Below, piece after piece: positions 2,543 through 28,844 of a stretch of 64,000 nt of DNA (position 1 is its first letter; the number at the start of each line of letters is the position of its first letter). The notes under the pieces are model-generated. The model was not told where the DNA came from. It was given only the letters and a program-made list of their open reading frames with translations, and ran no database searches. Position numbers and translations under genes: made by a program. Location: contig NZ_CP040765.1 in NCBI RefSeq assembly GCF_004683865.2, positions 186,001 through 250,000 on the forward strand, read 5' to 3'. Source of the stretch: Paracoccus liaowanqingii. GTDB lineage: Bacteria; Pseudomonadota; Alphaproteobacteria; Rhodobacterales; Rhodobacteraceae.

Positions 2543-2569
2543 GGAACAAATGACAGCACGCCCGGTTCC
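2543..2569. promoter_or_regulatory. Palindromic EcfG-type promoter, patatin/phaC
   Basis: On the + strand GGAAC (2543-2547) is followed by 17 bp and GTT (2565-2567). Because the next two bases are CC, the - strand also reads GGAAC-N17-GTT. The same 27 bp can therefore serve as an EcfG (general-stress sigma) promoter in both directions: leftward to the patatin gene (start 2510) and rightward to phaC (start 2739). Confidence 0.75.
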
Positions 2570-2738
2570 TCGGGCTTGACGCTGAAGAGTGCCGACCCCT
2601 GTGATTGCCTTAGTTCCAGCCAAGCAGAGCGAAGCAAGGTTTCTAGATCAAGCTATCCGGCCCTTATGGTTGCGGTGTGCGCTGAGCCAGCCGGCGGCAT
2701 GGGTGTCGATTTAAGGCCAAAGGTTAGGGGATCTGAGA

Positions 2739-4646
2739 ATGCCTGACGAAGAGGAGAAGGCTCGTCGCCAAGGGACCGGCCCGGCATTGACACAAGCCAT
2801 GTGGTCCGCCTGGATAGAGCAAACGTCCGCCGCGGGAGAGGCCTTGAAAGAAGCATGGCAAGTGCCGCCGGCCTTTTCTTCGGGGATGGCGGCTGACAGA
2901 ACCCGACCGAATGACGACATTCTGTCCAGAGACCCCATTCTGGGCGCCATTGCTCAGATGTGGAACGCCAACCCCCTACACAAGGTCGTGCCTCTGGACT
3001 GGGCAGAGATCACATGGGCTCTCCGGACAGTGGGGCAGCGTGCTCTCGCGAGGCCCGGGACGACGAAGTCTGTCATGGAGTTCAATCAGGACCTCTGGCG
3101 TATGACATTTGAGACCTGGCAAGAGACAGGGAGGCGCTGGATGGGGGTGGTCGAGCCGCCGTCAGAGGGTCCGGCGCCGGCCTTTGGTGACAAACGATTT
3201 GTGGCCCCCGAGTGGCAATCCAACCCGGCCTACCGCCTGCTGAAGGAGGTGTATCTGCTCGCCTCAAGCTGGCTTCTGGAACAGGGCGACACGGCGGACA
3301 TGGACGAGGCCGAGCGGCAACGCGTGAACTTTCATCTACGCCAGTTCGTCGATGCGATGAGTCCCACACTGATGTTGATGTCCAACCCGGCAGCACTCAA
3401 GAGGGCGATGGAAACCGGCGGTGCCAGCGTCGCCGCCGGTGCTCGCAACCTGATGGCGGACCTCAACGCCGGGCGGCTCAGCATGGTGGACGCGGATGCG
3501 TACGCGCCAGGGCGAAACCTGGCACTGACGCCGGGGAAGGTCGTCCATCGCAATCGCCTGATTGAGTTGATCCAGTACGAACCGACCACAGACAAGGTCC
3601 ACGCCGTGCCGCTGCTGATCGTGCCGCCTTGGATCAACAAGTACTACATCCTCGACATGCAGCCCAAGAACAGCATGGTCGCCTATCTGGTGGCCCAGGG
3701 TTTCACGGTCTTCGTCATCTCCTGGAAGAACCCCGACGCGTCGATGGATTCGGTCGGCATTGAGGACTACATGGACCTCGGCCCCTTGGAGGCGAGCGAC
3801 GTCGCCCGAAAAATCACCAACAGCGAGACCGTCAACGTGATGGGGTACTGCATCGGTGGAACCCTCATGACGATGACGCTAGCGGTCCTCGCGGCGCAGG
3901 GCGACAAGCGGTTCCGCTCAGCTAGCTTCATGGTGTCGCTGCAGGACTTTGAGCGGGTTGGGGATACGGCAGTGTTTATGGACGAACATGGCCTGGACGT
4001 CATCGAGCGGCAGATGATGGAGCGCGGCTATCTCGACAGTGCCGAGATGTCTAACATGTTTAACCTCCTGCGGTCGAACGACCTGATATGGGCCAATGTT
4101 GTCAATAACTACCTGCTGGGGAACAAGCCGCCGGCATTCGACCTGCTTTACTGGAACAGCGATGGCACTCGCATGGCCCGCGCTGCCCACAGCTGGTATC
4201 TGCGCAACACCTATCGAGAGAACAACCTCGTCAAGCCGGGCAAGGTCAAGCTCAAGGACAAGCCTATCGACCTTGGGCGCATCACCCTGGACTGCTATTC
4301 CGTAGGCGCCGAAAAGGACCACATCGTGCCTTGGGATGCGGCCTGGCGCATCACCCAGCTCTTCGGCGGTGACGTGCGGTTCGTTCTCGCCTCCAGCGGC
4401 CATGTTGCCGGCATTATCAACCCTCCGGGTGGCAAGGGCGCGCACTGGGCATCGGAGGACGGCACAGCAGCAAACACCCCGAAGCAGTGGTTGCAGGAGG
4501 CGAGCCGCCGCGAAGGTAGCTGGTGGCCCGATTGGGCAGCCTGGATGGCGACCCGCTCAGGCAGAAAGGGCAAGCCTCCCTCGTTGGGCAGTGACGACCA
4601 CCCGCCACTGCAGGACGCACCCGGCAGCTATGTGATGGAAAAATAG
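2739..4646 (+). CDS. phaC: Class I poly(3-hydroxyalkanoate) synthase
   Basis: The 635-residue protein polymerises (R)-3-hydroxyacyl-CoA into PHA at the granule surface. It has the PhaC N-terminal domain and an alpha/beta-hydrolase core. The lipase-like box reads GYCIGG with the catalytic Cys near residue 371; the catalytic Asp is near 527 (GAEKDHIVPW) and His near 555 (SSGHVAGIINPP). WINKYYILD and the WASEDG-type tail are typical of the family. Length is near the class I norm of about 560-620, slightly long. The usual partners phaA, phaB, phaP and phaR are absent from the window, so this may be a secondary synthase. An EcfG-type promoter 172 bp upstream suggests stress-induced expression. Confidence 0.95.
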   Translation: MPDEEEKARRQGTGPALTQAMWSAWIEQTSAAGEALKEAWQVPPAFSSGMAADRTRPNDDILSRDPILGAIAQMWNANPLHKVVPLDWAEITWALRTVGQRALARPGTTKSVMEFNQDLWRMTFETWQETGRRWMGVVEPPSEGPAPAFGDKRFVAPEWQSNPAYRLLKEVYLLASSWLLEQGDTADMDEAERQRVNFHLRQFVDAMSPTLMLMSNPAALKRAMETGGASVAAGARNLMADLNAGRLSMVDADAYAPGRNLALTPGKVVHRNRLIELIQYEPTTDKVHAVPLLIVPPWINKYYILDMQPKNSMVAYLVAQGFTVFVISWKNPDASMDSVGIEDYMDLGPLEASDVARKITNSETVNVMGYCIGGTLMTMTLAVLAAQGDKRFRSASFMVSLQDFERVGDTAVFMDEHGLDVIERQMMERGYLDSAEMSNMFNLLRSNDLIWANVVNNYLLGNKPPAFDLLYWNSDGTRMARAAHSWYLRNTYRENNLVKPGKVKLKDKPIDLGRITLDCYSVGAEKDHIVPWDAAWRITQLFGGDVRFVLASSGHVAGIINPPGGKGAHWASEDGTAANTPKQWLQEASRREGSWWPDWAAWMATRSGRKGKPPSLGSDDHPPLQDAPGSYVMEK

Positions 4647-5134
4647 GACTCAGAGCCGCAATAGTTGGTCAGATTGAGCTATGGCCAGAGGATGCGCTCA
4701 AGGCGCCGTTTCTCCCGGAGGGTCATCATCAACGCCCTTGGAGCCCCAGAGGCGCGGACGGGGATCGTGTCCGGATTGAGATGTTTTGCCTGTGCAGAGC
4801 GATCCGCTCCTTGGGCTTGGAGCCCGTCTGATCTCCGGCTACCTGTTCGACACGGAAAATGACCTCGCCGGCTCCGCAAACTCTGCATCGACCCTGCTTG
4901 TAGCAGGATCTACTTTTCAGGCGCGGACTGGGTGGACTTTGACCCTACCAATCGAAGCCCCGGGCCAAGTAACCTTATCCTTATCGCTGTTGAGCGCGAT
5001 ATTCGCCCTGCCGACCCGGTAGTAGGAAGCTCTCTCGGACGATCGCCAGCAATGCTTGCATCCTCGGGCCTCCCTCCTTCAACGATGATTTCGCATGCCC
5101 GCTTAGGGCTTTCTTCTTGGTCAAGCCTCGGGCG
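4647..5134. other. Intergenic stretch, nothing recognised
   Basis: About 490 bp between phaC and the EcfG promoter of the next gene. Open frames here are short and lack recognisable motifs or ribosome sites. The upstream in-frame extension of the next gene (from 4932) has no coding character. Confidence 0.5.
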
Positions 5135-5159
5135 GGAACAAACGATAGTATGCGAGGTT
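5135..5159 (+). promoter_or_regulatory. EcfG-type promoter
   Basis: GGAAC (5135-5139), 17 bp, GTT (5157-5159), about 43 bp before the ATG of the secreted Ala/Ser/Thr-rich protein. The motif and spacing match the other stress promoters in the window. Confidence 0.75.
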
Positions 5160-5201
5160 GCCGGAATATGCCCGAGAGGTGGGCAAATCTGGGAGGATCA
5201 C

Positions 5202-6131
5202 ATGAAACTGCGTGCTACTTTGATGGCCAGCTGTGCGATGGCACTGATTGGAACAACTGCCATTGCAGACTGCGCTGCGGACTTGGCCCAACTTCACTCA
5301 GAAGATCTGCAGATCGGTCAAGGCCAAGGTATCGCCAAGGACGGATCGTTGCCACCACTGGCAACCGCGGATGCCGCGCCTGAAAGCGATAGCGCCGCAA
5401 CACCCGTTCCCGGTGCCGCGGCCCACGGCAGGGAAGACAACGCTGCAGGTAATATTGAAACTGCCGGCAGTACGGTTGCAGACAGTGACATGGCGGCTGC
5501 CGATACCGCAGCCTCTGCCGAGACGGTACCCCCCGGCGAGGTCGAAGGGGAAGGCTCCGCAAACGATGGAGCGCAGGAAGCTCATGACGCGGCAGAAGGA
5601 AGCAACAGCCCAATGACGCCCGAGAATGATGACGCGGCTGCCACCGGCGAAGACAGTGCAGCAAGCGATACGGATGCTGCTGGCGGCACAGCCGCGACAA
5701 GCGATATGGCAGCCGCTAATTCGGCCACCTCGGCCGAAGGCACGCCCTCAGGTGACGGCATTGCGAAAGACGGATCACTTGCTCCGCAGGAGGGAACGGA
5801 AGCAGAAGCCGGCACTCCCCGCGCCATGTCGGGACAGGACGTCCAGGCTCAGCAGGAAGGCAACCCAACTGCTGCTGAAAGCGCTGAAAGCAGCGCTATG
5901 GCTGAGACCACCTCAGGCACGACCACCAACAGCAGCGCAGATACGCCAGCCGGTGGGACTGACAGGTCAAGCTCTGAGACGAGTCCCGCCATAGACAGCG
6001 ATACGGCTGAGGGCGAAGCAACCATGGCGTCCCCTGACCGCAGTGAATTGGTCGCCGAAGCACAGGCAGCTCTCAATGCCGGCGATGAAGAAGCATGCCG
6101 TGAAGCTATCGAGAAGATCGAAGCTCTCTGA
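5202..6131 (+). CDS. Exported low-complexity Ala/Ser/Thr/acidic protein
   Basis: I place the start at the ATG preceded by GGGAGGATCAC, giving 309 residues. Residues 1-22 form a Sec signal peptide (AMALIGTTAIA, then cleavage before DCAADL). The middle is a disordered Ala/Ser/Thr/Glu/Asp-rich region with internal duplications: GIAKDGSL occurs near residues 43 and 186, and the AADTAASAETVPPGE and AAANSATSAEGTPSGD segments are related copies. The last 30 residues return to a predicted helix (LVAEAQAALNAGDEEACREA). I do not recognise a named family. An envelope stress role is suggested only by the EcfG promoter upstream. A hairpin at 6146-6175 probably ends the transcript. Confidence 0.75.
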   Translation: MKLRATLMASCAMALIGTTAIADCAADLAQLHSEDLQIGQGQGIAKDGSLPPLATADAAPESDSAATPVPGAAAHGREDNAAGNIETAGSTVADSDMAAADTAASAETVPPGEVEGEGSANDGAQEAHDAAEGSNSPMTPENDDAAATGEDSAASDTDAAGGTAATSDMAAANSATSAEGTPSGDGIAKDGSLAPQEGTEAEAGTPRAMSGQDVQAQQEGNPTAAESAESSAMAETTSGTTTNSSADTPAGGTDRSSSETSPAIDSDTAEGEATMASPDRSELVAEAQAALNAGDEEACREAIEKIEAL

Positions 6132-6531: not shown

Positions 6532-6556
6532 GGAACAAGTTTTCCGCTTGTCAGTT
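6532..6556 (+). promoter_or_regulatory. EcfG-type promoter
   Basis: GGAAC (6532-6536), 17 bp, GTT (6554-6556), 30 bp upstream of the DUF892 start codon, an ideal distance for a short leader. Confidence 0.78.
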
Positions 6557-6586: not shown

Positions 6587-7087
6587 ATGGCTGATCAAAC
6601 ACTTGATACGTTGTTCCACGAGACGCTCAAGGACATCTATTATGCCGAACGCAAGATCGCGACGGCTCTACGGAAAATGTCCCGTGCTGCTCAGAACCCT
6701 GATCTGAAAGCTGCTTTCGAGACGCATGAGCAGGAAACACAAGCCCAATACGAGCGCCTATCCGATGTCTTCGAAACGATTGGCAAAAAGCCCCGTGGTA
6801 AAACTTGCGATGCCATCGAGGGTATCATTGCCGAGGGTCAGGAGATCATGGATGAGTTCAAGGGAAGCCCCGCTCTCGATGCTGGACTTTTAGCCGCCGC
6901 ACAGGCCGTCGAGCATTATGAAATTGCCCGCTATGGTACGTTGAAAGCATGGGCGCGGCAACTTGGACTGGAAGAGGCCGAACGCTTGCTGGACGAAACT
7001 CTGCAGGAAGAGATGGCGACCGATCAAATACTGACCGGCCTTGCAGAAACTGTCATTAATGCTGCTGCCGAGAGCACGAAAGCCTAA
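6587..7087 (+). CDS. DUF892 (YciE/YciF) ferritin-like protein
   Basis: The 166-residue product matches the YciE/YciF family: the N-terminal TLFHETLKDIYYAERKIATAL, a central QEIMDEF and the VEHYEIARYGTL helix carry the Glu/His ligands of a four-helix ferritin-like bundle that can hold a di-iron site. Relatives are induced by osmotic, oxidative or stationary-phase stress; the reaction is unknown. The start ATG follows AAGGAGATCACA, a strong ribosome site. A second family member is at 9299-9814 but is clearly divergent, so this is not a recent duplication. The EcfG promoter immediately upstream fits a stress role. Confidence 0.9.
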   Translation: MADQTLDTLFHETLKDIYYAERKIATALRKMSRAAQNPDLKAAFETHEQETQAQYERLSDVFETIGKKPRGKTCDAIEGIIAEGQEIMDEFKGSPALDAGLLAAAQAVEHYEIARYGTLKAWARQLGLEEAERLLDETLQEEMATDQILTGLAETVINAAAESTKA

Positions 7088-8093: not shown

Positions 8094-8936
8094 TTAGCTT
8101 CTAGCCGATAAAAATAAAAGCTTTTTTTTCGGGCCTGTATTTTTGCACTCACTATTGGCGAGCGTGGGAGATAGGACATACGGGCCGCGCCGGCTGCGGA
8201 AAAGAACTTTGTCAGCAATGCGGCGACGGAGCGAGGGGTTATTTTGCAATTCCCGGTCCTGCAGGAATATCAATCCATGAAGCTCCGGCCTGAAATCTAG
8301 CGCCAGCTCAGCCCCCCAGGACGCTACCAAAGAAGGAGACAGACCTCGGTCGTCGCCGATTTGCGTGGCCATGATGCCGGGAATCCATTCGGTTACCACG
8401 ATTGATGGCAAGTGGCACTCAAGTTCAGTTGCAAGCGCCATGGAGAACGATCTGAAGCCAGCTTTCGAAACGGAGTAGCCCAGCTTTCCTACGGCGGGGC
8501 CCTCACCCGCAAAACTTCCGACATTGATGATGCGGCCCCGCCTGCGCTGTAGCATTCCTGGTATGAAAACCTTGGATGCAATGATTGGGCCGCAGCAATT
8601 TATGCGGATGTGGTCATTAATTTCGTCGGAAGTAGAATTCAGAAAATCTTGCTGCAAGCAAATGGCGGCATTATTGACCAAGATCGAAACAGGACCCATA
8701 TTATTTTCTATGTCAGAAGCAACTCTTACCATTTCCTGGTCACACGATACATCTGCAGCTATTGCTGTAAAAAATCCGGCGCGGCAATTACGTGCCGTCT
8801 CCTCAAGTCGACCGATATTTCGCGCTATTCCTATGACATGGAGGCCTTTTTCCGTGAGCGATTGTGAAAGTGCACGTCCCAATCCTGAACTGGCGCCTGT
8901 AACAACTGCTATCAAAGATTGCGGCAAACCGGACAT
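8094..8936 (-). CDS. Short-chain dehydrogenase/reductase
   Basis: I choose the ATG at MSGLPQ, giving 280 residues; 28 upstream codons look non-coding and overlap the promoter. Classical SDR marks are present: TGASSGLGRAL (nucleotide-binding Gly motif), ADVS, NNAA, a catalytic Ser in GSFAG and the YSVSK catalytic Tyr/Lys pair near residue 157. It therefore has a Rossmann fold and NAD(P)-dependent oxidoreductase activity on an unknown alcohol or ketone. The last 60 residues are longer than the usual 250-residue core, with a basic tail. An EcfG-type promoter ends 41 bp upstream. Confidence 0.85.
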   Translation of the reverse strand: MSGLPQSLIAVVTGASSGLGRALSQSLTEKGLHVIGIARNIGRLEETARNCRAGFFTAIAADVSCDQEMVRVASDIENNMGPVSILVNNAAICLQQDFLNSTSDEINDHIRINCCGPIIASKVFIPGMLQRRRGRIINVGSFAGEGPAVGKLGYSVSKAGFRSFSMALATELECHLPSIVVTEWIPGIMATQIGDDRGLSPSLVASWGAELALDFRPELHGLIFLQDRELQNNPSLRRRIADKVLFRSRRGPYVLSPTLANSECKNTGPKKKLLFLSARS

Positions 8937-8976: not shown

Positions 8977-9001
8977 AACCCGCAAGTCGTTTCGATGTTC
9001 C
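8977..9001 (-). promoter_or_regulatory. EcfG-type promoter for the SDR gene
   Basis: Read on the - strand: GGAAC (complement of 8997-9001), 17 bp, GTT (complement of 8977-8979), 41 bp upstream of the SDR start at 8936. Confidence 0.75.
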
Positions 9002-9244: not shown

Positions 9245-9269
9245 GGAACATCCCGAGCACTCGCCGGTT
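9245..9269 (+). promoter_or_regulatory. EcfG-type promoter for DUF892/NDH-2 pair
   Basis: GGAAC (9245-9249), 17 bp, GTT (9267-9269), 29 bp upstream of the start of the second DUF892 gene. It points away from the SDR promoter at 8977. Confidence 0.78.
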
Positions 9270-9298: not shown

Positions 9299-9814
9299 AT
9301 GGCTAAAACGATGAGTGCACAGGACATCTTCCTGGACGGACTTCGCAACGCGCACGCGATGGAGAAGCAGGCCTTGTCCATCATGCAGCCTCAGCTGAAC
9401 CGGCTGCAGCACTATCCGGAAATGTCGGCCCTTCTGGACCAGCATATCCGCGAGACCGAGACCCAGATCGGCCGCCTGGAGCAGATCCTGACCAGCCTTG
9501 ACGCCTCGTCATCGGGGCTGAAGGATCTAGGCCTTTCGATGACCGGCAGCATGGCGGCTCTCAGCCATACGCTGGCAGGTGACGAGATCCTCAAGAACAC
9601 CTTCGCCAACCACGCCTTTGAGAACTTCGAGATCGCGGCCTATGTTTCACTGATCACTACCGCCGACTTGTGCGGCGCGGGCGAGGCGACGGTACTTCTT
9701 CAGCAAAGTCTGGACGAAGAGCGGCACATGGCCAGCGCCCTCCACGACAGCATCGACGCCGTAACCCGCCGCTATGTCACGCTTGCGGCATCAGATGACC
9801 GCGCCGATATCTGA
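9299..9814 (+). CDS. DUF892 (YciE/YciF) ferritin-like protein, second copy
   Basis: 171 residues from the ATG preceded by CTGGAGGGCCAT. In-frame sequence further upstream overlaps the EcfG promoter and is not counted. The DUF892 pattern is visible: the NAHAMEKQALSIM helix, HIRETETQIGRLEQIL, FENFEIAAYVSL and LDEERHMASAL, with Glu and His residues spaced as in a four-helix bundle. Sequence identity to the copy at 6587 is low. The 3' end overlaps the NADH-dehydrogenase-like gene by 20 bp, so the two are translationally coupled and presumably share a stress function. Confidence 0.88.
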   Translation: MAKTMSAQDIFLDGLRNAHAMEKQALSIMQPQLNRLQHYPEMSALLDQHIRETETQIGRLEQILTSLDASSSGLKDLGLSMTGSMAALSHTLAGDEILKNTFANHAFENFEIAAYVSLITTADLCGAGEATVLLQQSLDEERHMASALHDSIDAVTRRYVTLAASDDRADI

Positions 9815-11177
9815 GCTCGCACCGGTCGACCTGCCCGTCGCGGTGGTGGACCTGTCCGAGGTGGTCGTCATCGGGGCGGGCTTCGGCGGGTTGGAGGTCG
9901 CCAAGGCCCTGGGCCGAAGCGGCGTCAACGTCACGGTGATCGACCGGCGCAACCATCATTTGTTCCAACCGTTGCTTTACCAAGTGGCGACGGCGGCGTT
10001 GTCGTCGACCGATGTGGCAGAGCCGATCCGCAAAATCCTGTGCCGCTACCCGTCGGTGCGGGTGATCTTCGGCGAGGTTGTGGAGGTCAACGCCACGGCA
10101 CGACGGGTGCGGTTGAGCTGCGGGCAGGTCTTCGGCTATCGGCACCTTGTGCTGGCCAGCGGCGCCAGCCATGGCTATTTCGGCCATGATGACTGGGCGC
10201 AATGGGCACCCGGGCTCAAAACGATCGAGGATGCCCGACACATCCGCTCGCAGTTGCTTCTAACCTTCGAGCGGGCCGAACGTGCGACCGATCCGATCGA
10301 GCGCCAAAGGCTGTTGGAGATCGCCATCATTGGCGGCGGCCCGACCGGGGTCGAGCTGGCAGGGGCCATCGCCGAGCTGAGCCGTCACACCCTTTTACGG
10401 GACTTTCGCAGCATTGATCCGGGCAGTACGCGCATCACCCTTATCGAGGCGGGGCCGCGACTGTTGTCCAGTTTCACAGAAGAAATGTCAGCCTATGCCC
10501 GGACCCGGCTGGAGCGGCACGGAGTCATCGTCCGGACTGGCGAGGCGGTGGAGGAGATCGGCCCCGCCACGATCACCATTGGCGGGACTAGCCAGCCCGT
10601 CGGCGTGGTCATCTGGGCCGCAGGTGTCGCTGCGTCACCGCTGGCACGGCAGCTGGGAGGGACCGACCGCGCGGGCCGTATCCCGGTCGACGAGACACTG
10701 GCCGTTAGAAGCCAGTCGCAGGTTTATGCGCTCGGCGACGTTGCCCTGCTCAGTGATCCCGAGGGCCGGCCGCTTCCCGGTTTGGCGCAGGTCGCCAAGC
10801 AGCAAGGTATCCATTTGGGCCAGGCCCTGGCCCGGCATCTGAAGACCGGCGCTCCGCTGACCCCCTTCCGCTATCGCAGTCGGGGCAACACGGCGATTGT
10901 CGGCCGCCATGCGGCCGTGTTCGAACAAGGACGCTTCAAGGTTAAGGGCTGGCTGGCCTGGATGTCTTGGGCGGTGATTCATGTTTATCTGCTGGTCGGC
11001 TTCCAGAACCGTTTTCTTGTCTCGATGCAGTGGCTTTGGCGTTATCTCACCTACGAACACGGTGCCCGGGTGATCGCAGGCGATTTCGTCGAGACAGATG
11101 ATCCCAAGGCAGTGCCCCTCCCGCGCGACAGGGGGGCCGCACTGCCGGAGGGCGCAAAGACCTCCGTGGGGCTCTAA
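9795..11177 (+). CDS. ndh: Type II NADH dehydrogenase-like FAD oxidoreductase
   Basis: About 460 residues. The first Rossmann motif VVVIGAGFGGLEVAKAL binds FAD and the second, IAIIGGGPTGVELAGAIAEL, binds NAD(P)H. HHLFQPLLYQVATAALS, ALGDVA and GLAQVAKQQG are typical of NDH-2, and a C-terminal hydrophobic/aromatic segment (WAVIHVYLLVGFQNRF) anchors the family to the membrane. NDH-2 oxidises NADH and reduces quinone without pumping protons. I take the ATG at 9795; an ATG at 9774 is also in frame. Overlap with the DUF892 gene places it in a stress-induced operon. Confidence 0.88.
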   Translation: MTAPISELAPVDLPVAVVDLSEVVVIGAGFGGLEVAKALGRSGVNVTVIDRRNHHLFQPLLYQVATAALSSTDVAEPIRKILCRYPSVRVIFGEVVEVNATARRVRLSCGQVFGYRHLVLASGASHGYFGHDDWAQWAPGLKTIEDARHIRSQLLLTFERAERATDPIERQRLLEIAIIGGGPTGVELAGAIAELSRHTLLRDFRSIDPGSTRITLIEAGPRLLSSFTEEMSAYARTRLERHGVIVRTGEAVEEIGPATITIGGTSQPVGVVIWAAGVAASPLARQLGGTDRAGRIPVDETLAVRSQSQVYALGDVALLSDPEGRPLPGLAQVAKQQGIHLGQALARHLKTGAPLTPFRYRSRGNTAIVGRHAAVFEQGRFKVKGWLAWMSWAVIHVYLLVGFQNRFLVSMQWLWRYLTYEHGARVIAGDFVETDDPKAVPLPRDRGAALPEGAKTSVGL

Positions 11178-12829: not shown

Positions 12830-13078
12830 TCACAGATCCCACCCGTTCTCGGGAGACCGGTGCTTCAGATTGGCGCCTCCGGTATTCGACGCTTCCCAGG
12901 CTGCAGGATGCAAAGTTTCCTCCCGGCTTTCGGGGGCGGATGCAGCCTCGCTGAATGTCCCACCTCCCTGTACTTCTCGCTTGGCTTGCGCCCAATGCTC
13001 GCCGTCCTTGCCTTCGGGACATCCTTCGGCCTCCCAGTTCTGATGCGCACGTGCGCGGATCTCGTCATTCTCTTCCAT
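12830..13078 (-). CDS. DUF2934 small protein
   Basis: 82 residues beginning MEENDEIRARAHQNWEAEG, followed by CPEGKDGEHWAQAKREV. This is the DUF2934 pattern (IRxRAyxlWexeGxPeGxdxeHWxxAe) seen in many alphaproteobacterial stress-associated small proteins, with unknown biochemical role. The rest is hydrophilic and probably disordered. The ATG is preceded by a GGAGGTCGATAT ribosome site on the - strand. An EcfG-type promoter ends 27 bp upstream, which supports both the start and the strand. Confidence 0.8.
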   Translation of the reverse strand: MEENDEIRARAHQNWEAEGCPEGKDGEHWAQAKREVQGGGTFSEAASAPESREETLHPAAWEASNTGGANLKHRSPENGWDL

Positions 13079-13105: not shown

Positions 13106-13130
13106 AACAGCTCATAACTGGAAATGTTCC
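13106..13130 (-). promoter_or_regulatory. EcfG-type promoter for DUF2934 gene
   Basis: On the - strand GGAAC (complement of 13126-13130), 17 bp, GTT (complement of 13106-13108), 27 bp upstream of the DUF2934 start at 13078. Confidence 0.78.
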
Positions 13131-16654: not shown

Positions 16655-16676
16655 CAGGATTGCGGGGGCTGTCGGT

Positions 16677-17711: not shown

Positions 17712-18102
17712 GATAGGCTTCCTTCACCGCGCTTGCGTCGCGCTGGACATTCTCGGCCGTGCGCGTCGGCATGAGGTTTTCAGGCTTCAGATCGGCCATG
17801 CCCTTGCGCAGCAGCACATAGGCCAGGATCGCCAGGATCACGCCGACGATCACAGCGCTCCAGATCGGGCCGAGGTCGGTCTCGGCCAAGGCGGCGACCA
17901 GGGCGGCGGTCAGCACGTTCAGCGTGACGATGCCCAGGACGGCGGCGGCCGCAACCATGCCCAAGCCCGCGCCGGCGCGGGTCAGGTTCTGGCGCATCTC
18001 GGCCTTGGCGAGGGTGATCTCCTTGCGGACCAGATCGCCCGAGAGGCGCAGGGCGTCGGAGGCCAGCGAGGCGGGGTTCTGCGAGCGGACGGGATCAGGC
18101 AT
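17701..18102 (-). CDS. Phage holin family (holin-X-like) membrane protein
   Basis: 133 residues from the ATG preceded by GGAGGCTCGC; another ATG eight codons upstream is in frame but less well placed. A short cytoplasmic N-terminus with a helical segment (LVRKEITLAKAEMRQNL) precedes two transmembrane helices (LGMVAAAAVLGIVTLNVLTAALVAAL and WSAVIVGVILAILAYVLL). This is the putative actinobacterial holin-X (PF07332) pattern, which in non-phage contexts is a membrane protein of unknown function. It overlaps the upstream gene by 8 bp and the downstream gene by 11 bp, so all three are translationally coupled. Confidence 0.82.
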   Translation of the reverse strand: MPDPVRSQNPASLASDALRLSGDLVRKEITLAKAEMRQNLTRAGAGLGMVAAAAVLGIVTLNVLTAALVAALAETDLGPIWSAVIVGVILAILAYVLLRKGMADLKPENLMPTRTAENVQRDASAVKEAYHDA

Positions 18103-18724
18103 GCGAGCCTCCGTCGTTGCGGCCACCGGCGCCGGGGACGGGGCCAGCCGGGGCGGTGCCGGTCGGAACGGTGCCGGTCGGGACCGCGCGGGAGGCGCTG
18201 GCGGCCGAGGGGGTGACGGTGGCGGTGCCGGCCGGGCCGACCGTCGCAGGGGCGTCAGAGGACGGGCGGCGGGTCATGCCGGCGTCACCGAAGCCGCTGG
18301 TGTTCATGGGCGTCGAGGACGGGACGGAGCCTGCGCGCAGGAAACGGATCGCGGCGAAGCCCGCCAGGGCCGAGAGGCCCAGGAAGGCGCCCGGCTGGCG
18401 GCGCGCGAAGCTGCGCACATCCTCGACCATCTGGGCCGGATCGGTCGCGTTCAGGCTGCCCGCCAGACCGCTGACGCTGTCGGCGGCGCGGTCGAACATG
18501 GTGGCGATGGACGAGTCCGGGTCGATCTCGGACCCGGCCTTGCGCAGGCCCGCGGCCACGCTTTCGGCGCGCTCGGCGATGCCCGAGCGCAGGTCCTTCT
18601 CGCGGCGCGTGACCTCGTCCTTGACGCTGCCTGCGAGGCGCGAGGCCTGATCGGTGGCCTCGGACATGATGCTGTCCTTGGCGGAGGTGCCGGTCGCCTT
18701 GGTGTGCGGATCGTCAACGGTCAT
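18095..18724 (-). CDS. Nutrient-deprivation-induced-type protein
   Basis: 209 residues from MTVDDPHTKATG, preceded by GGAGATCCCAG. Upstream in-frame codons run through the promoter and are discounted. The N-terminal half is helical (SEATDQASRLAGSVKDEVTRREKDLRSGIAERAES), then comes a weak hydrophobic segment (PGAFLGLSALAGFAAIRFLRAG), then a Pro/Thr/Ala tail with VPTGT repeats. It resembles proteins annotated as nutrient-deprivation-induced in rhizobia and Rhodobacteraceae. It is the first gene of the three-gene operon under the EcfG promoter, so a role in the starved-cell envelope is plausible but not shown. Confidence 0.75.
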   Translation of the reverse strand: MTVDDPHTKATGTSAKDSIMSEATDQASRLAGSVKDEVTRREKDLRSGIAERAESVAAGLRKAGSEIDPDSSIATMFDRAADSVSGLAGSLNATDPAQMVEDVRSFARRQPGAFLGLSALAGFAAIRFLRAGSVPSSTPMNTSGFGDAGMTRRPSSDAPATVGPAGTATVTPSAASASRAVPTGTVPTGTAPAGPVPGAGGRNDGGSHA

Positions 18725-18800
18725 CTGGGATCTCCTTCGGTTTGGATCGTTCGGGGCCGGGCGCGATGAATGGCGCATCGACACAAACTGTTGGGCTCCC

Positions 18801-18825
18801 AACCAATAAAACGACGCCCTGTTCC
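18801..18825 (-). promoter_or_regulatory. EcfG-type promoter of the stress-envelope operon
   Basis: On the - strand GGAAC (complement of 18821-18825), 17 bp, GTT (complement of 18801-18803), 76 bp before the start at 18724. Confidence 0.8.
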
Positions 18826-19309
18826 GAAAAAGCCTTCCAAATCCAGTTCGGGAGATGCGTGCGACAAACTCCAACACACAGATTTCATCACCTTTCGGCT
18901 CTCGCCATAAATGCGTTCAAGGAGGAGAAAGATGAGCGGGCAGCGAAACTTCGTTGAATAGCGTCATGTATTTAGCGTGCATGATGACGACAAAGGACAG
19001 TACTTTTGTGATTTTGATAATGTAGCTGCCCACGCCACGGCGCTGCGTGCTTTTTTATGTCCCACATCGTTTCGCAACGAAGCAAAGATGCCCCGAGGGA
19101 GATTCATGCTCAGCGAAATCGTGCGGAGATTGCATCTCCTCCGCACCAGAGTAAGTAACCTACATATTTTTTCGGCGCATACCAAAAGAACGAAACTTAG
19201 TCATGGCAGCTCTTGTTAATATAGGACCGGTTTGGCGAAACCGATCACAGAGGCTTCTTTAGTTTTACTTGGTGGGAAATACGCAACGCCGCAAACGGGA
19301 GAAACGCCA
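18826..19309. other. Intergenic stretch, nothing recognised
   Basis: About 480 bp with lower GC. Short frames on both strands have no ribosome sites or motifs. It separates the leftward stress operon from the rightward lipoprotein gene. Confidence 0.4.
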
Positions 19310-19829: not shown

Positions 19830-20675
19830 TTAGTCGCGGGTGCGGTCCAGATCGTCACGACGAGGAGCAGAACGCTCGTCCTCTACCTCCACCTCTGTGT
19901 GACGGACCGTGTCGGAGACTGTCTCCTGATGACTGTCGCTGGTCTTGCGCAGGGCGATCTCTTCCACAATGCGCGCCTCCTTGGTCACCACAGCCTCCTC
20001 ATGGTGCTCTTCCGCTTCCAGCGTCCGCTCCCTGTAGTCGCCATCCATGTTGGCGGGGCGGTCAACCGGGGTCTGCACCAGTTCGACCCGCTCGTCGCGC
20101 AACTCGACTGTCTCGCTGACGGGAGTCTCCACCGTGTAAGCGCGGACACGCACGCGTCCGTGGCTGGTCTGGCGCTTACCGACGCGCAATCTTTCGTCGA
20201 TGACCGGGATCGACTCTCCCGAGGGCGCGACGGCTTGCTCGCTTACAACTGGGCGCTCGGACACATAGGAGCTCGCCTCATAGCCGCCCCAGCCCTTACC
20301 TCGCCAGCTCGCCTCGCGCTCGTCAAGGTCAACAGTTTGTTCGGCGTCGAGAATGTCGAGAGCGGTATCATACTCGACCGTGTTCAGGTCGCTGGCAGTC
20401 ACAAGATAGCCGCCACGTGACAGGCCCTCGGCATAGGTATAACGATCTTCGTCCGGCATGAAGAAATCGCTCAAACTGTCCCAGAAGCTCTTCCCCTGGC
20501 CAGTGTCAGCGCTAGGAGCGGTGCCTGCACCGGCCCCTGCCGTGAGGTGGATGCGTGCAATGGGGAGGCCAGCCTGCACAAGCCGATCAACGGCGGCTTG
20601 TGCATCGGTTTGGCTGTCGAAGAGAGCGGAGACGGACGTCTGGCCCGTTGCGCCGGCATTGTTGTCGTAGGTCAT
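19830..20675 (-). CDS. YsnF/AvaK (DUF2382) stress protein
   Basis: 281 residues. The N-terminal part (VSALFDSQTDAQAAVDRLVQAGLP) matches a general-stress ferredoxin-like module. After a linker comes the DUF2382 domain: IPVIDERLRVGKRQTSHGRVRVRAYTVE-type segment, ELRDERVELVQTPVDRP, EEIALRKTSDSHQETVSDTVRHTEVEVED. Proteins of this type are stress-induced, with unknown mechanism. It lies 14 bp after the IHF-like gene and could be co-transcribed, but it also has its own EcfG promoter inside that gene's 3' end (20706-20730). Confidence 0.88.
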   Translation of the reverse strand: MTYDNNAGATGQTSVSALFDSQTDAQAAVDRLVQAGLPIARIHLTAGAGAGTAPSADTGQGKSFWDSLSDFFMPDEDRYTYAEGLSRGGYLVTASDLNTVEYDTALDILDAEQTVDLDEREASWRGKGWGGYEASSYVSERPVVSEQAVAPSGESIPVIDERLRVGKRQTSHGRVRVRAYTVETPVSETVELRDERVELVQTPVDRPANMDGDYRERTLEAEEHHEEAVVTKEARIVEEIALRKTSDSHQETVSDTVRHTEVEVEDERSAPRRDDLDRTRD

Positions 20676-20689
20676 CGTGAAGATCCTTG

Positions 20690-21004
20690 CTATCCAGGAC
20701 CTTCAAACCGTTCATGGATCGGTATGTTCCCCGTCAGCCGCGACAGAAGCTGTTTCGACGCTCTGAACGCCGGCACTTGTTTAGCCTCGACTTGCACTGG
20801 GTCGCCGTTTCTGGGATTCCGGCCCAACCGCGGGTCCCGGACCTTGCTGGAAAAGGCTCCAAAGCCCCGAAACTCAACTCTCTTGCCCTGAGCCAGACTG
20901 TCGGTGATCTCGTTCAGGATCGCCTCAACGGCGGCCTCTACCACCTGCTGCGATAGATGTGGGTGGGCATGCGCAAGTTTCCGGACCAACTCCGAACGGA
21001 CCAT
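20690..21004 (-). CDS. IHF-beta-like DNA-binding protein
   Basis: 104 residues from MVRSELVRKLA, the usual IHF-beta start; an ATG two codons upstream is also possible. The complete HU/IHF fold is present: helices (LSQQVVEAAVEAILNEI), GKRVEFRGFGAFSSK, the RDPRLGRNPRNG arm tip and VPAFRASKQLLSRL. It bends DNA as a heterodimer with IHF-alpha, whose gene is not in the window. It differs enough from standard chromosomal IhfB, and has a C-terminal extension (IPIHERFEGPG), to suggest a plasmid-borne paralogue. The fragment at 2-208 is another copy. Confidence 0.88.
   Translation of the reverse strand: MVRSELVRKLAHAHPHLSQQVVEAAVEAILNEITDSLAQGKRVEFRGFGAFSSKVRDPRLGRNPRNGDPVQVEAKQVPAFRASKQLLSRLTGNIPIHERFEGPG
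20706..20730 (-). promoter_or_regulatory. EcfG-type promoter inside IHF-like gene
   Basis: On the - strand GGAAC (complement of 20726-20730), 17 bp, GTT (complement of 20706-20708), 31 bp before the DUF2382 start. It would let the stress protein be made separately from the IHF-like protein. Confidence 0.65.
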
Positions 21005-21519: not shown

Positions 21520-22119
21520 TCAATGTAAGTATAGATACGCGCGATGCAGACGTTCTTCTTTCAAGATACTATTAAGATGTTCTCTAACGTCTCCCGTGAA
21601 TATGTCTTCCTCCGCCTTAGTTATTGCCCGATTCAACGCTGCATCGACAAGCCGATCGGCAGAGGCCTGATCTGGCATCATCGCACGTGCGGCCATAACA
21701 AGTTCTTTTAAAATTTCCTCAATACTTGTCTCCGGCGATATTTCTGGTCTGAAATATTGATACTGCAAGTCGCATAGGATGGGGGCGATTTTGCTTGGCT
21801 TCAGGTAGATGAGTTTGCGATCGAAGCGCTCAGGGATATGCTTTTTGCCGTACCCTGTCAGAAATACAAAAGGGATTGACTTGCAAGACAGTTTGTCTGC
21901 AATAACAAATGACGTGTCGGCTTGCACTCTTACGTCAAGAATTGCCGCTTGGACGGTATCAAGGTAGTAAAGTGCTTCGTTGGTATTAAAAAATGGTCCT
22001 ACGACATGATTGCCACTTGTCCTGATTTCATGGGCTAAGTGATCCGCTTGAAGATAATCGTCCTCAACAACAAGGATGTTGAGAGGGGGCATCGAAATAT
22101 AGTCCTCTATGTTTTTCAT
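21520..22119 (-). CDS. Response regulator with C-terminal sigma-like segment
   Basis: About 199 residues. The receiver domain starts with LNILVVEDDYLQADHLA; the phosphoacceptor Asp is in AAILDVRVQ, the conserved Thr in FVFLTGYGKKHIPERF and the Lys in YLKPSK. Behind it, about 70 residues (ELVMAARAMMPDQASADRLVDAALNRAI then REHLNSIL) resemble sigma-factor region 2 helices as in ECF proteins, but truncated. This is an unusual order, since PhyR has the sigma-like domain first. A role in stress signalling is inference. Start chosen at MKNIEDY; MPPLNIL is an alternative. Confidence 0.7.
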   Translation of the reverse strand: MKNIEDYISMPPLNILVVEDDYLQADHLAHEIRTSGNHVVGPFFNTNEALYYLDTVQAAILDVRVQADTSFVIADKLSCKSIPFVFLTGYGKKHIPERFDRKLIYLKPSKIAPILCDLQYQYFRPEISPETSIEEILKELVMAARAMMPDQASADRLVDAALNRAITKAEEDIFTGDVREHLNSILKEERLHRAYLYLH

Positions 22120-22771: not shown

Positions 22772-25035
22772 ATGCACGGCAACCACAACGAGGTTCTTGT
22801 TTTTTTGGCACTTCTGATCGCCACGGCGACGTCCTATACGGCGTTAGACCTTGCCGGCCGGTTCAATGCCGCCATTAGCAAGAAGGTACGTGCGTGCTGG
22901 CTTTCGGGAGCCGCATTTTCGCTCGGCGGCGGCATCTGGTCGATGCATTTCGTGGCTATGTTAGCGCACTCCCTGCCGGACATGCGTCCGTCTTACGAGC
23001 CCGCGCTGACGGTCCTGTCATTCTTGATCGCGGTCTGTGCCACGGGATTGGGCTTTGCGATCGTCGGCAATTTTCGCCAGCGGGTGCCGGCACTACTCTT
23101 GAGTGGTCCCCTCATGGGATGCGGGATCGCGGCAATGCATTTCACCGGTATGGCGGCCCAACAGATTTCGATGGTGGTAAGCTACGATACAGCCTGGGTA
23201 GCGGTTTCACTTCTTGTGGCGATAGGTGCCGCCACTGCCGCGCTTTGGCTCTCGTTTATGAACACAGGTCAGGTAGAGAAGCTTATTGCTGCCGGCGTCA
23301 TGGGAGCAGCAATCTCAGGGATGCATTTTTCTGGCATGCGGGCCGCCACATATTCTTTATTGCCGAATGGCGGGCATTTTGACACCCACAGCGTGAACTC
23401 TGATGTGCTCGCTATTGGAGTTTCGACCGTCACGTTTTTGATTCTGTCGTTCGGACTACTGGCGGCTACGGTCGACCGCCGCCTTGCACAGCAAAGCCAA
23501 AGGGAAGCCGAATGGCTGAGAGCGAGCGAGGAGCGGTTTCGGACGTTATACCGTCGCACTCCGCTGCCACTGCATGCGGTGGATCGGGACGACCGTATAG
23601 TTGATGTCAGCGACGCATGGCTCGCCCTACTTGGATTCGAGCGAAGTGAGATTATTGGCCGTGGTCTTGGCACGTTTATGACGCCTGAGTCCGCGCAAGG
23701 CCGAACCAGTGCTCCATGGCCGTCGCCATTAGAAGCGAGCGCTGTTCGGAAAATCGACGCGAACCTTGTTACCAAATCGGGAAACATTATAGATGTCGAA
23801 ATCACCGGCCGGATAGAATTGGATGCTGAGGGAAATTTCCTTTCTCGCATCGAAGGTCTGGTCGACGTCACCGCGCGCAAGGACGCCGAAAATGCCCTCA
23901 GGCAGGCGCAGAAAATGGAAATGCTGGGAAATTTAACCGGCGGCGTGGCCCACGACTTCAACAACCTCCTCGCCATTATTCTGAGTAATCTAGAGTTGTT
24001 GCGGAAACGAATTCCGGAGAGCGAAGGCACCCACCAACTGATCGATACCGCTATTCAAGGGGTCCAAAGAGGCTCGACCCTTACGCAACGTATGCTGCAT
24101 TCGCGCGCCACCAGAGCCTCACTCCGAAGCCTGTCGACGTTGCTGCCCTTGTTCGCGGCATGGCCGACCTCCTGCAGCGGTCACTGGGACCGCAGTTTGA
24201 GTTGCTGCTTCCGAAGGCCAATCTGGTCGCCGTGGCGAATGTGGACGAGAACCAGCTCGAGATGGCGCTCCTGAACCTGGTCGTCAATGCGCGGGACGCG
24301 ATGCAAGAGGGAGGTTTGATCGAAGTCGTCGTAGACACTGTGAACGCCTCTCCGTCCGGGCAGCAAATCGCAATAAAGGTGGTTGACCGAGGAGCTGGCA
24401 TGGACTTGGCCACGCTTAGTCGTGCAACTGAGCCCTTTTTTACGACTAAAGGTCCCACGAAAGGAACCGGTCTTGGCCTTTCCATGGTCCATGGTTTTGC
24501 CGCGCAGTCAGGGGGGAGGCTCGAACTGATCAGCAAGCGAGGGGAGGGAACCCAAGCGACGATACTGCTTCCTGCCACCGAAGCACCGAACATTGTCGAT
24601 ACGGGCATGACGCCATCCGAGGCGGCACCGCCATCGGGTTTGCTCGCCACCATTCTGGTTGTGGATGATGACTTTCTAGTCTTGTTAAATATGCAAGCCA
24701 TGCTGGAGGATATGGGGCACCGTGTGTTTCCCGCCCATAACGGTGAGGATGCCTTGAAAATTCTGGATCGGGTCGATGAGGTGGATCTGGTGATTACCGA
24801 TCAGGCGATGCCGCGGATGACGGGTTTGCAGCTTGCAGAAGCCATCCATCATCGACATCCAGATCTGCCCATCATTCTTGCGACAGGGTATTCAGAACTT
24901 CCGACAAATCATCCCAATGTCACCTCCAAACTTAACAAACCTTACTTTCAGGCTGAGTTGGACAAAGCCGTGAGCGAGGCTTTAAGTTCACGGCCGCGTC
25001 CGAACGTCATCCCATTCAAGCTTCCTGCAATCTGA
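22772..25035 (+). pseudogene. MHYT-PAS hybrid histidine kinase, single-base frameshift
   Basis: The frame starting at 22772 encodes a membrane MHYT domain with three His/Met motifs (SMHFVAM, AMHFTGM, GMHFSGM), a PAS domain (residues about 255-365) and the HisKA segment (GGVAHDFNNLLAII). At about 24097 a G is missing. Inserting one base restores an uninterrupted reading (RMLAFARHQSL, then PKPVDVAALVRGMADLLQ) into the second frame. That frame holds the ATPase domain (NLVVNARDAM, DRGAGM, GTGLGLSMVHGF) and a receiver domain (VVDDDF, Asp in LVITDQAMP, Lys in LNKPY). Intact, it would be a 754-residue hybrid kinase; relatives feed general-stress phosphorelays. It could be a real lesion or an assembly error. 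Confidence 0.85.
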
Positions 25036-25583: not shown

Positions 25584-25608
25584 GGAACAATGGCAGCCGA
25601 AGCTGGTT
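25584..25608 (+). promoter_or_regulatory. EcfG-type promoter for the Cys-rich mini-protein
   Basis: GGAAC (25584-25588), 17 bp, GTT (25606-25608), 33 bp upstream of the ATG at 25642. Confidence 0.75.
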
Positions 25609-25641: not shown

Positions 25642-25800
25642 ATGAGCAATGATCCTAATCCTGACAAGGTACCGCCAGACACACAGGGAGCAGGAGAGAA
25701 CCTTTGCCGGGGGTGTGAGGGATCAGGGCAAATGGACGGCAAGGAATGTCCCGAATGCGACGGGAGTGGGAAGGTCACAACGGGAATTGGCGGCGCTTAG
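25642..25800 (+). CDS. DnaJ-type CxxCxGxG mini-protein
   Basis: A 52-residue gene with a GAGGAG ribosome site. The product carries two CxxCxGxG repeats (CRGCEGSGQ and CPECDGSGK), the zinc-binding unit of the DnaJ cysteine-rich domain, with no J domain. Four Cys can bind one zinc ion. Stand-alone proteins of this kind occur in alphaproteobacteria and may bind unfolded protein or act as redox or zinc modules; the role here is unknown. The EcfG promoter upstream supports it as a real gene. Its TAG stop lies in the TTAG target site of the adjoining mobile-element relic. Confidence 0.75.
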   Translation: MSNDPNPDKVPPDTQGAGENLCRGCEGSGQMDGKECPECDGSGKVTTGIGGA

Positions 25801-25959: not shown

Positions 25960-25962
25960 TTA

Positions 25963-27121
25963 TACCAACGGCCCTAAGCACTGACCCCTTTTGCGTATTC
26001 ACGCGTGGCAATCGATCGGACGCGCTCGGGGTCGTTTGCGAAGGCGTTCCATGCGCTGCAGCATCGGTCGACAATGTCTGCGTAGGTGTCAAAGACGGTG
26101 ATGGCGAGGCAGTTTGCGCGCAGATAGGCCCAGATGTTCTCAACCGGATTCAGCTCTGGCGCATAGGGCGGAAGCGTCACGATGGTGATGTTGTCGGGGA
26201 TGCGTAGAGCACTGGAGTTATGCCAGCCGGCGCCGTCCATGACGAGCACGGCATGGGCGCCCGACGCGACGGTTTTTGCGATTTCAGCGAGATGAGCGTT
26301 CATGGCCGAGGTATCGGCACGTGGCATGACAAGTGCCGCGGTCGTGGCGCGCGATGGACAGACGGCGCCGAAGATATAGGCCCATTTGTAGCGGGTGTCG
26401 CGCGGCGCACGAGGTCGGGTTCCGCACTCGGCCCAGGTCCGGGTGAGCGTCCCCTGCTGGCCCACTCTGGCTTCATCCTGAAACCACACCTCCAATGGCT
26501 TCCCGTGCGCCGTCTCCGGTAGGGCGGCCTTTACCGTCGCGGCAAAGTTTTTTTAAATGCCTCCTGTGCCAACGGGTCGGATTTGGGGTGCTGTGGGCGC
26601 ACCGACAGGCGGCGAAAGCCAAGGGCTGCCAGCTGCTTGCCGACCGTCCGCTCGTGCATGACCACGCCGAAGCGATCTTCGATCTTGCGCTTGAGATCGA
26701 CGCAGCGCCAGCGGACCACCCCATCGGCCTCAAGGTCAGGCCCTTCACGGACCATCCGGGCAAGTTCCGCTTTCTGCTCAGAGTTCAGGAGCGGCGTCGG
26801 GCCTGCCCAATACCGGTTCGACAGACCGGTGATCCCCTCGGCGTTGTAGCGATGAACCCAATCGCGCAGGGTCTGCCGGTCCATGCCGCAGGCCTCCGCC
26901 GCCGTCTTGCGATCCGCGCCCTCCAGAACAAGAGCGATCGCCAAAATCCGCCGCACCGCTTTTGCATCCTTTGTGCGCGCCGCCGCCGCCCGAAGCTCAC
27001 TTGTCGACATATCCGTTCGAGTGATCTCAATCGCCATCAGAACCTCCATCTCTTGATGGCAATGATTCAGATTTTCAGGTCGAAGGGAATCCCGTGAGTC
27101 AGAGCTTAGGGCTGTTGGTAT
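25963..27121 (-). mobile_element. IS630-family insertion sequence, complete
   Basis: 1159 bp. The terminal inverted repeats TACCAACRGCCCTAAGC agree at 16 of 17 positions (25963-25979 and 27104-27120). TA, the IS630/Tc1 target duplication, occurs at 25961-25962 and 27122-27123. It carries a two-frame transposase. It sits inside the right TTAG duplication of the MITE-like relic. A second, internally deleted copy is at 30798. Confidence 0.85.
25974..27049 (-). CDS. IS630 transposase (two frames, programmed frameshift)
   Basis: The 5' frame (27049-26531) encodes the helix-turn-helix part (AAEACGMDRQTLRDWVHRYN, a winged-helix IS630 N-terminus). The 3' frame (up to 26495 and down to 25974) encodes the DDE catalytic part (WFQDEARVGQQG, VLVMDGAGWH, LPPYAPELNPVENIW). 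They join at a run of seven A on the coding strand (complement of 26548-26554), where a -1 slip yields one fusion protein of about 357 residues. Such slippage is usual for IS630. The protein cuts and pastes the element into TA sites. Both frames look intact, so the element may be active. Confidence 0.88.
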
Positions 27122-27124
27122 TAG

Positions 27125-27589
27125 TCTGGGTCCATTCAAATATGCAGCCCTACCACTTCCATATCAGCGCCAGGTCTCGCGAACAACTTGTAAAACTTTC
27201 TGCGGTTACTGCAGTTTTATTAATGTCATCATAATTTGGAATATATGCAAAACTTCAGAAGATTCTCACCAATTCACACAGACTTCTTAATGCAATGTTT
27301 CGATATAGCCTCTGAATATCTGTATTAGCAAAAAGGAAACTCCAAACCTGTAACTCATAAGCTGTGCAGATCTCGATCGCTATCATCAATTTTTTTATCT
27401 CCGAGACTGGCTCCATATTGTGTTCGTTTTTTTACTAACTTCTCCATAAGAGTTTTCTAGCTGTTCTCTTTATGGGCAGAACTCGTCAAATGAATACGCC
27501 TTACTATTGTACGTTTCCTCACTGATGCGACAGAAGTGGTGGAATGCCGTGCTGACGATAAGTTATTTGCCACGAACCATGGAGATGAC
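27125..27589. other. Intergenic stretch, nothing recognised
   Basis: About 465 bp of distinctly AT-rich sequence to the right of the IS630 copy. Nothing coding was identified. The base composition differs from the genes on either side. Confidence 0.4.
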
Positions 27590-28440: not shown

Positions 28441-28494
28441 ACTCCTGCACGCTACAACAGCTCCATCTGGCCAGTCCCAAACCCGGTGTAGTTT

Positions 28495-28525
28495 AGGCTA
28501 CCCGTTCCGCATGAGCGGGTAGCCT
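28495..28525 (-). terminator. Hairpin downstream of WGxxGxxG gene
   Basis: AGGCTACCCG (28495-28504) and CGGGTAGCCT (28516-28525) form a perfect 10-bp stem with an 11-nt loop, 21 bp beyond the stop of the leftward gene. It lacks a good T run. Confidence 0.55.
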
Positions 28526-28545
28526 GTCAGTGTAGGTGCTTCAGA

Positions 28546-28773
28546 TCAAGAGCGCCTGCTTGTCGTAGTATGGACGTCGTCCCGCTGACGCCCTTTCAGG
28601 CCGGCAAGCCCGAGCAGTCCCAAAAGGCCGAGCAGGCCCCAGTCGAAACCGTCATCTTGCTCAACTCCGACCGGCGGCGCGTTTGCAGGCTCGGTGGTCG
28701 CCACCTGGGCCAAAACGGGGCTGCTAGTAATGAGAACGAGAGCCACGGTGCAGATGCGAAGTCCTTTGGACAT
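28546..28773 (-). CDS. WGxxGxxG-type small exported protein
   Basis: 75 residues. Residues 1-22 form a Sec signal peptide (ICTVALVLITSSPVLA). The C-terminal half holds the sorting-like motif WGLLGLLGLLGLAGL followed by a charged Lys/Arg-rich tail, the layout of WGxxGxxG proteins (Trp, Gly-rich transmembrane helix, basic end). Such proteins are thought to be membrane-anchored and stress- or envelope-linked; no function is established. An EcfG promoter lies 47 bp upstream of the ATG. Confidence 0.75.
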   Translation of the reverse strand: MSKGLRICTVALVLITSSPVLAQVATTEPANAPPVGVEQDDGFDWGLLGLLGLLGLAGLKGRQRDDVHTTTSRRS

Positions 28774-28819
28774 GATAAATTACTCCTGTTCTGCCATCCT
28801 ACTGGTCTGGCGAAGTCGT

Positions 28820-28844
28820 AACAGGACGCAAGGGGAGATGTTCC
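28820..28844 (-). promoter_or_regulatory. EcfG-type promoter for WGxxGxxG gene
   Basis: On the - strand GGAAC (complement of 28840-28844), 17 bp, GTT (complement of 28820-28822), 47 bp before the start at 28773. Confidence 0.75.

Follow-up and report, generated by a model that had tools for sequence, protein, structure and literature searches.

The described system closest to the one considered here is the PhyR-NepR-EcfG circuit of the alphaproteobacterial general stress response. We analysed a 64-kb stretch of Paracoccus liaowanqingii DNA, called the window below (positions 186001-250000 of contig C11 in a 4.93-Mb genome of 11 contigs), whose first 29 kb, the left arm, carry a series of sites made up of GGAAC, 17 bases and GTT (N17 sites). 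The arm is like the PhyR-NepR-EcfG system in its promoter boxes, their spacing and the families of its target genes, and the genome has the chromosomal locus with its conserved promoter. It departs from the usual arrangement in that the sites are in excess mainly off the chromosome, in blocks that are partly duplicated between contigs. We consider it very likely that EcfG-type control governs the left arm as a block of general-stress genes on a plasmid, with transcription that would start from these sites.

A second precedent is the non-canonical EcfG2 of Rhizobium etli, which is reported to be plasmid-borne (PMC3892343). The second EcfG of our genome, also called EcfG2 here, lies on contig C10 and has relatives of 60-80% identity in 13 Paracoccus records of a collection that holds plasmids only, so that chromosomal members could not appear in it. 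The settings of the two differ. The R. etli report gives no response regulator or anti-sigma gene near EcfG2 (PMC3892343), whereas the Paracoccus gene is surrounded by N17 sites and often has near it a NepR-like gene and a gene for a protein that we call REC-sigma2, a receiver domain followed by a sigma2-like domain. Moreover, at least one Paracoccus genome (G070) has a chromosomal EcfG2, unlike the plasmid-borne gene of R. etli.

EcfG-type promoter sites in the left arm

The window holds 12 N17 matches, compared with a mean of 1.33 in shuffled sequences, and none of 100 shuffles reached 12; each of the other spacings from 10 to 24 gave 0-3. The original prediction had listed eleven sites, each with exactly 17 bases between the boxes, placed them 27-172 bp before gene starts and noted their absence from the catabolic half of the window. 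All eleven were found in place with that spacing, the distance from GTT to the start codon is 27-171 nucleotides (nt; in order 171, 42, 30, 40, 29, 27, 149, 76, 30, 33 and 46), and no match occurs beyond 29 kb. An A follows GGAAC in all eleven, and the next base is A or T in ten. Over 310,000 of the 310,431 bases of C11, GGAACA occurs 15 times at this spacing (GGAACA-N16-GTT) and 0-5 times at each other spacing from 8 to 28. Copies that depart from the eight box positions by one base show no such clustering in the arm: 17 precede the 29-kb mark and 20 follow it. When eleven other arm genes were searched for such copies, one was found, before a luciferase-like gene (13229-14245), and none before REC-sigma2 or the receiver gene at 29315.

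The predicted promoters were then followed before homologous genes of three target families and before nepR-ecfG1. The DUF3618 operon was followed over 21 homologue loci in 18 Paracoccus genomes: 20 have an exact N17 site within 420 nt upstream, with differing spacers, and other spacings were seen five times in all. Because the rows include two identical pairs, the loci are not fully independent. Among the best 80 of 577 DUF892 loci, which come from Paracoccus, Rhizobium, Devosia, Phyllobacterium, Sinorhizobium and other genera, 61 have N17 within 300 nt upstream, N16 never occurs, N18 occurs four times and other spacings 0-3 times. For DUF2382, N17 occurs 13 times within 750 nt, mostly at operon heads, compared with 0-4 for other spacings. 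All 24 Paracoccus loci examined have the nepR-ecfG1 promoter (25 genomes were sampled; the 25th, without a NepR over the cut-off, was left out), with N18 in 19 and N17 in five, and position 6 is always C or T. The boxes are thus found upstream of start codons at a fixed spacing and are kept before homologous genes while the spacer diverges, for DUF2382 at operon heads only. A motif of the same spacing, GGAAC-N16-CGTT, is reported for R. etli EcfG1 (PMC3892343). These footprints support the original assignment, and judging from conservation the arm sites almost certainly belong to the EcfG promoter class. Most transcription units of the arm would then be headed by an exact EcfG-type promoter, GGAACA-N16-GTT.

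The original prediction proposed a scan of the whole genome. In our scan the 3.27-Mb contig C1 was taken as the chromosome, and the rate of a reversed-pattern control gave the expectation for each contig. GGAACA-N16-GTT occurs 82 times, compared with 26 for the reversed pattern. The excess is strong on the non-chromosomal contigs (58 sites against 8.7 expected, P 3e-28; C11 has 15, C10 13, C7 10 and C9 8) and barely visible on the chromosome (24 against 17.3, P 0.07). By approximate gene calls, a gene begins within 300 nt of six of the 24 chromosomal matches, while 14 of them fall inside genes; off the chromosome, where five window sites were handled separately, the figures are 30 and 10 of 53. 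The gene finder was home-made and crude, missing the true start of phaC and the first gene of the DUF3618 operon, so gene labels are approximate. Across the genome, N17 matches lacking A at position 6 are in no excess over the reversed control (83, compared with 113), and this, together with the 14 chromosomal matches inside genes, means that many single matches are chance. Across 24 genomes of the same genus the motif excess ranges from none to 40.

The left arm sits on a plasmid, as had been proposed, and this plasmid is of the repABC type. The repC and repB genes lie in the window itself (Table 1); on C11 the RepC models PF03428 and PF11800 match, the partner has a ParB_N match, and a ParA-type ATPase gene adjoins, although the RepB model scores 26.8 bits, below its cut-off of 30. 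A replication protein of the AK26 type was sought on C11 with no match, repABC being there instead. Parts of the arm have moved between replicons: window 14134-18939 recurs on C7 at 96.5% identity and 16622-18782 on C10 at 96%. The search of plasmid records for a relative of the whole arm returned nothing long (seven records match, two of them Paracoccus, each covering at most 6%), and the first gene of the DUF3618 operon is present in three records, all Paracoccus. The identity between the C11 and C10 copies of this operon ends before the promoter (window 18782-18825); the two promoters differ, yet both are exact N17 sites.

Two candidate sigma factors

Under stress, general-stress-response kinases would relieve the NepR-type inhibition of an EcfG sigma factor, and the freed EcfG would guide RNA polymerase to the -35 GGAAC and -10 GTT boxes. 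There are two candidate readers. EcfG1 is encoded on the chromosome together with PhyR and NepR, in keeping with the original prediction, and passes its NCBIfam cut-off (338.9 bits, cut-off 270). EcfG2, of 157 amino acids (aa), is encoded on C10 among N17 sites; genes for an HWE kinase and a NepR-like protein are close by. EcfG2 has ECF-type sigma2 and sigma4 domains, and a tree of 33 sequences places it among the 30 EcfG rows as opposed to three other ECF sigma factors (99/96), but its best score with the nearest curated NCBIfam models, 145.8 bits, falls short of the cut-off of 307. Within EcfG it stands apart from the canonical proteins and joins plasmid EcfG rows (99/99) from Ketogulonicigenium, Martelella, Roseivivax, Chelatococcus, Mesorhizobium and Rhizobium. 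The tree drew a long-branch warning from the program, takes its non-Paracoccus rows from the plasmid-only collection and has no row for R. etli itself. A sigma factor at C11:108360 was considered as the arm's own and rejected; it has a putative anti-sigma gene of its own downstream and groups with the two other non-EcfG rows.

EcfG2 is present in 43 of 125 Paracoccus genomes. That it is always plasmid-borne was rejected, since the G070 copy lies at 2.65 Mb of contig C1 and must therefore be chromosomal; EcfG2 relatives are often, not always, on plasmids. P. aminovorans plasmid IV, for instance, carries one at 570145-570615. Around EcfG2 on six named plasmids, N17 sites number 5-12 per stretch, compared with 0-4 for other spacings, and the genes around plasmid EcfG2 encode various ferritin-like proteins, catalases, Ku, short-chain dehydrogenases and trehalose synthesis. 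At three loci (L108, L110 and L112) GGAACC and, further on, CATTG stand before EcfG2 instead of GGAAC-N17-GTT. On a plasmid of Rhizobium sp. N324 a holin-DUF3618 gene pair adjoins the plasmid EcfG. In Dinoroseobacter shibae and Ketogulonicigenium the canonical hub is itself plasmid-borne, and a D. shibae report counts a sigma factor and a kinase of the 153-kb chromid, probably the plasmid hub genes, as part of the stress response (PMC4373377).

Both EcfG1 and EcfG2 probably read the arm sites. A number of observations weigh against this account of the arm. Genomes with EcfG2 do not stand out in their motif excess (seven with, 18 without, P 0.38), and nine of the 18 genomes with the DUF3618 module have no EcfG2, so that sigma factor is not required. 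In R. etli, the motif is reported at just one of 19 EcfG2-dependent units (PMC3892343). The nepR-ecfG1 promoter, never with A at position 6 and mostly N18, is unlike the arm sites, so use of the arm by EcfG1 is not proven either. Finally, 19 of the 80 best DUF892 loci have no N17 site, and DUF2382 has one directly upstream in just one of 30 fetched homologue loci.

The arm could instead be a side extension of the chromosomal regulon, read by EcfG1 only, much as originally proposed. A NepR over the cut-off, with EcfG beside it, in 24 of the 25 sampled Paracoccus genomes fits this, as do the DUF3618 modules that have N17 sites in genomes without EcfG2 and the DUF892 genes with such sites in many rhizobia. 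It sits poorly with the small site excess on the chromosome and with a second EcfG placed amid such sites on C10, where there is also a NepR-like gene, and on plasmids of other Paracoccus. The original version of this idea is not supported, and EcfG1 as sole reader is a distinct possibility against which we nevertheless lean. Less probable still, indeed unlikely, is that EcfG2 alone reads the arm, in a circuit that links accessory replicons and is shielded from the chromosomal switch. At least one GGAACA-N16-GTT lies within 1.5 kb of EcfG2 in seven of seven loci, named plasmids have several such sites near the gene, and the chromosomal hub promoter differs as described; against such insulation, genomes that lack EcfG2 can still show the motif excess and the DUF3618 module. 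That the sites are chance matches or bind another regulator, an idea to which the unremarkable count without A at position 6 and the chromosomal matches inside genes lend something, is hardly tenable given the shuffles and the exact spacing with free spacers before 20 of 21 and 61 of 80 homologue loci.

REC-sigma2 and its NepR-like neighbours

REC-sigma2 shares with PhyR a receiver with invariant active-site residues, a sigma2-like domain and linkage to EcfG and NepR-like genes; it differs in having the domains in reverse order, receiver first and sigma2-like last, in having no sigma4-like part that we could find, and in its length of about 192-199 aa instead of about 265. The PhyR architecture (N-terminal sigma2-sigma4-like region, then receiver) scores 26.8 bits on the window protein against 240, with no sigma4 match. 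A protein search found 32 homologues over 77-100% of the length, and the alignment of 30 rows comprises the query and 29 of these. Residues D20, D21, D62, T88 and K107, which we take to be those needed for phosphorylation of the receiver, are invariant in all 30. A search of the open-licence literature found no description of this reversed architecture, which may be described elsewhere.

The tail, some 70 residues, could belong to an ordinary receiver with an unrelated helical extension. In the window protein it matches PhyR_sigma2 at 20.7 bits, short of the cut-off of 27, 18 of the 30 members have no such match at E<=0.01, and comparison with the Paracoccus PhyR profile gives 0.4% probability, all of which would suit that reading. 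On the other side, 12 members do match PhyR_sigma2, and the tail profile by itself aligns over its whole length with the sigma2 of Paracoccus EcfG (hhalign 88%) and picks up EcfG2 from P. aminovorans (E 2.3e-6) and K. vulgare (1.1e-5) as well as the canonical EcfG of D. shibae (3.6e-5). The genes are also linked. REC-sigma2 occurs in 25 of 125 Paracoccus genomes, 19 of which have EcfG2 (Fisher P 2.4e-6); the two share a contig in ten of the 19, 249-6741 bp apart, and are on different contigs in nine, including this genome. An ordinary receiver therefore seems improbable.

The order EcfG2, NepR-like gene, REC-sigma2 is found on plasmids of P. yeei, Paracoccus sp. AK26 and K. vulgare. Of 32 REC-sigma2 loci, 12 have a NepR-like open reading frame nearby at E<=0.005 (one of the 12 supplied a query), and N17 sites lie within about 2 kb in 18 of 30. 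The window copy has neither a NepR-like neighbour nor an N17 site of its own, and the second copy of this genome, on C7 at 42 kb, does have a NepR-like neighbour. The small C10 and C7 proteins do not match Pfam NepR (PF18557), which only the chromosomal NepR passes; an E-x-[IV]-P-x-R-[LF] core together with a place close to EcfG or REC-sigma2 would make them candidate NepR proteins. A profile from hand-picked seeds, the C10 protein among them, finds the annotated D. shibae NepR (4e-14) and RsiA1 (2.6e-10), neither of which was a seed, and the C7 protein (1.9e-9). The divergent C10 and C7 proteins may function as NepR. Beside EcfG2 on C10 (L057:9782-10222) there is also a protein with sigma4 and partial PhyR_sigma2 matches and no receiver, possibly one half of a PhyR-like protein.

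In its phosphorylated form REC-sigma2 would use the sigma2 mimic to capture a NepR-type anti-sigma factor, and the sigma factor would thereby be freed. From its domains and gene neighbourhoods we tentatively read it as a PhyR-like antagonist of reverse order for the EcfG2 branch, a reading that is plausible without being the probable one; the chromosomal EcfG2 of G070 leaves it as it was because it does not depend on EcfG2 being always plasmid-borne. It is plausible, at about the same level of confidence, that a second stress switch (EcfG2, a divergent NepR and a reverse-order PhyR analogue), often plasmid-borne, exists in Paracoccus and its relatives and forms, with copied promoter-bearing target blocks, a transferable regulon with its own control parts. 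If so, part of the general stress response would be accessory rather than core, and gain or loss of a plasmid could shift stress tolerance wholesale. Non-canonical EcfG proteins would gain candidate regulators of the kind that the R. etli study did not find nearby (PMC3892343), and PhyR's trick would work with its domains swapped.

Genes of the arm

The original list of targets, which named families typical of stress, stands in most respects (Table 1); the 5135 site faces a 309-aa protein that had not been listed. Patatin had been named as a target without being faced by any listed site. It is faced, at 34 nt, by the twelfth match, at 2545-2569 on the minus strand, which overlaps the 2543 site: since the latter reads GGAAC-N17-GTTCC it is automatically a site on both strands, with equal spacing either way. 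Any such sequence, as between phaC and patatin, serves both directions. The DnaJ-type match of the 52-aa protein is weak (PF00684, E 0.004, under its cut-off).

Table 1. Predicted promoters and genes of the window (window coordinates)
Feature	Position	Strand	Basis or remark
Patatin-like phospholipase, possible target	1437-2510	-	Pfam PF01734
Predicted EcfG-type promoter, faces phaC (ATG 2739, 171 nt)	2543-2567	+	motif search
Predicted overlapping EcfG-type site, faces patatin (ATG 2510)	2545-2569	-	motif search
PhaC polyhydroxyalkanoate synthase, target	2739-4646	+	Pfam PF07167
Predicted EcfG-type promoter	5135-5159	+	motif search
Acidic, low-complexity, apparently secreted protein (309 aa), target	5202-6131	+	without Pfam family
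Predicted EcfG-type promoter	6532-6556	+	motif search; footprint of its family (DUF892)
DUF892 ferritin-like protein, target	6587-7087	+	Pfam PF05974
Short-chain dehydrogenase, target	8094-8936	-	
Predicted EcfG-type promoter	8977-9001	-	motif search
Predicted EcfG-type promoter	9245-9269	+	motif search
Second DUF892 protein, target	9299-9814	+	followed by NDH-2-like oxidoreductase, 9774-11177
DUF2934 protein, target	12830-13078	-	
Predicted EcfG-type promoter	13106-13130	-	motif search
Predicted EcfG-type promoter	14350-14374	+	motif search; similar copy on C7
Alpha/beta hydrolase, target	14524-15522	+	
Putative DUF3618 operon	15562-18724	-	four genes
Pyridine nucleotide-disulphide oxidoreductase, putative DUF3618 operon	15562-16452	-	
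DUF3618 protein, putative DUF3618 operon	16677-17711	-	
Holin-X-like protein, putative DUF3618 operon	17701-18102	-	
Conserved unknown protein, first gene of putative DUF3618 operon	18095-18724	-	
Predicted EcfG-type promoter of DUF3618 operon	18801-18825	-	motif search; homologue footprint
DUF2382 (YsnF-like) protein, target	19830-20675	-	operon-head N17 sites in homologues
Predicted EcfG-type promoter	20706-20730	-	motif search
REC-sigma2, candidate anti-sigma antagonist	21520-22119	-	199 aa: receiver, then sigma2-like domain
Predicted EcfG-type promoter	25584-25608	+	motif search
CxxCxGxG-type small protein (52 aa), target	25642-25800	+	weak DnaJ_CXXCXGXG match
WGxxGxxG family protein, target	28546-28773	-	NCBIfam NF041742
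Predicted EcfG-type promoter	28820-28844	-	motif search; paralogous copies on C8 and elsewhere on C11
Single-domain receiver	29315-29698	+	without N17 site
repC and repB of repABC cassette	61324-63669	-	RepC and ParB/RepB matches

The arm also has receivers similar to the single-domain receivers SdrG and MrrA (PMC6599016, PMC5964349). The C7 and C8 homologues of the 29315 receiver are each preceded, at 21 nt from the start, by an N17 site, unlike the window copy. The arm receivers are presumably of the FATGUY kind, by their look. A histidine kinase at 22772-25035 on the plus strand is split over two overlapping frames (MHYT-PAS-HisKA and HATPase-receiver) and looks frameshifted. A two-part transposase (DDE_3 and helix-turn-helix) lies within the arm at 25974-27139 on the minus strand. 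Its counterpart on C8 shares 98.5% identity with it, and one elsewhere on C11 shares 97.6% over the stretch seen.

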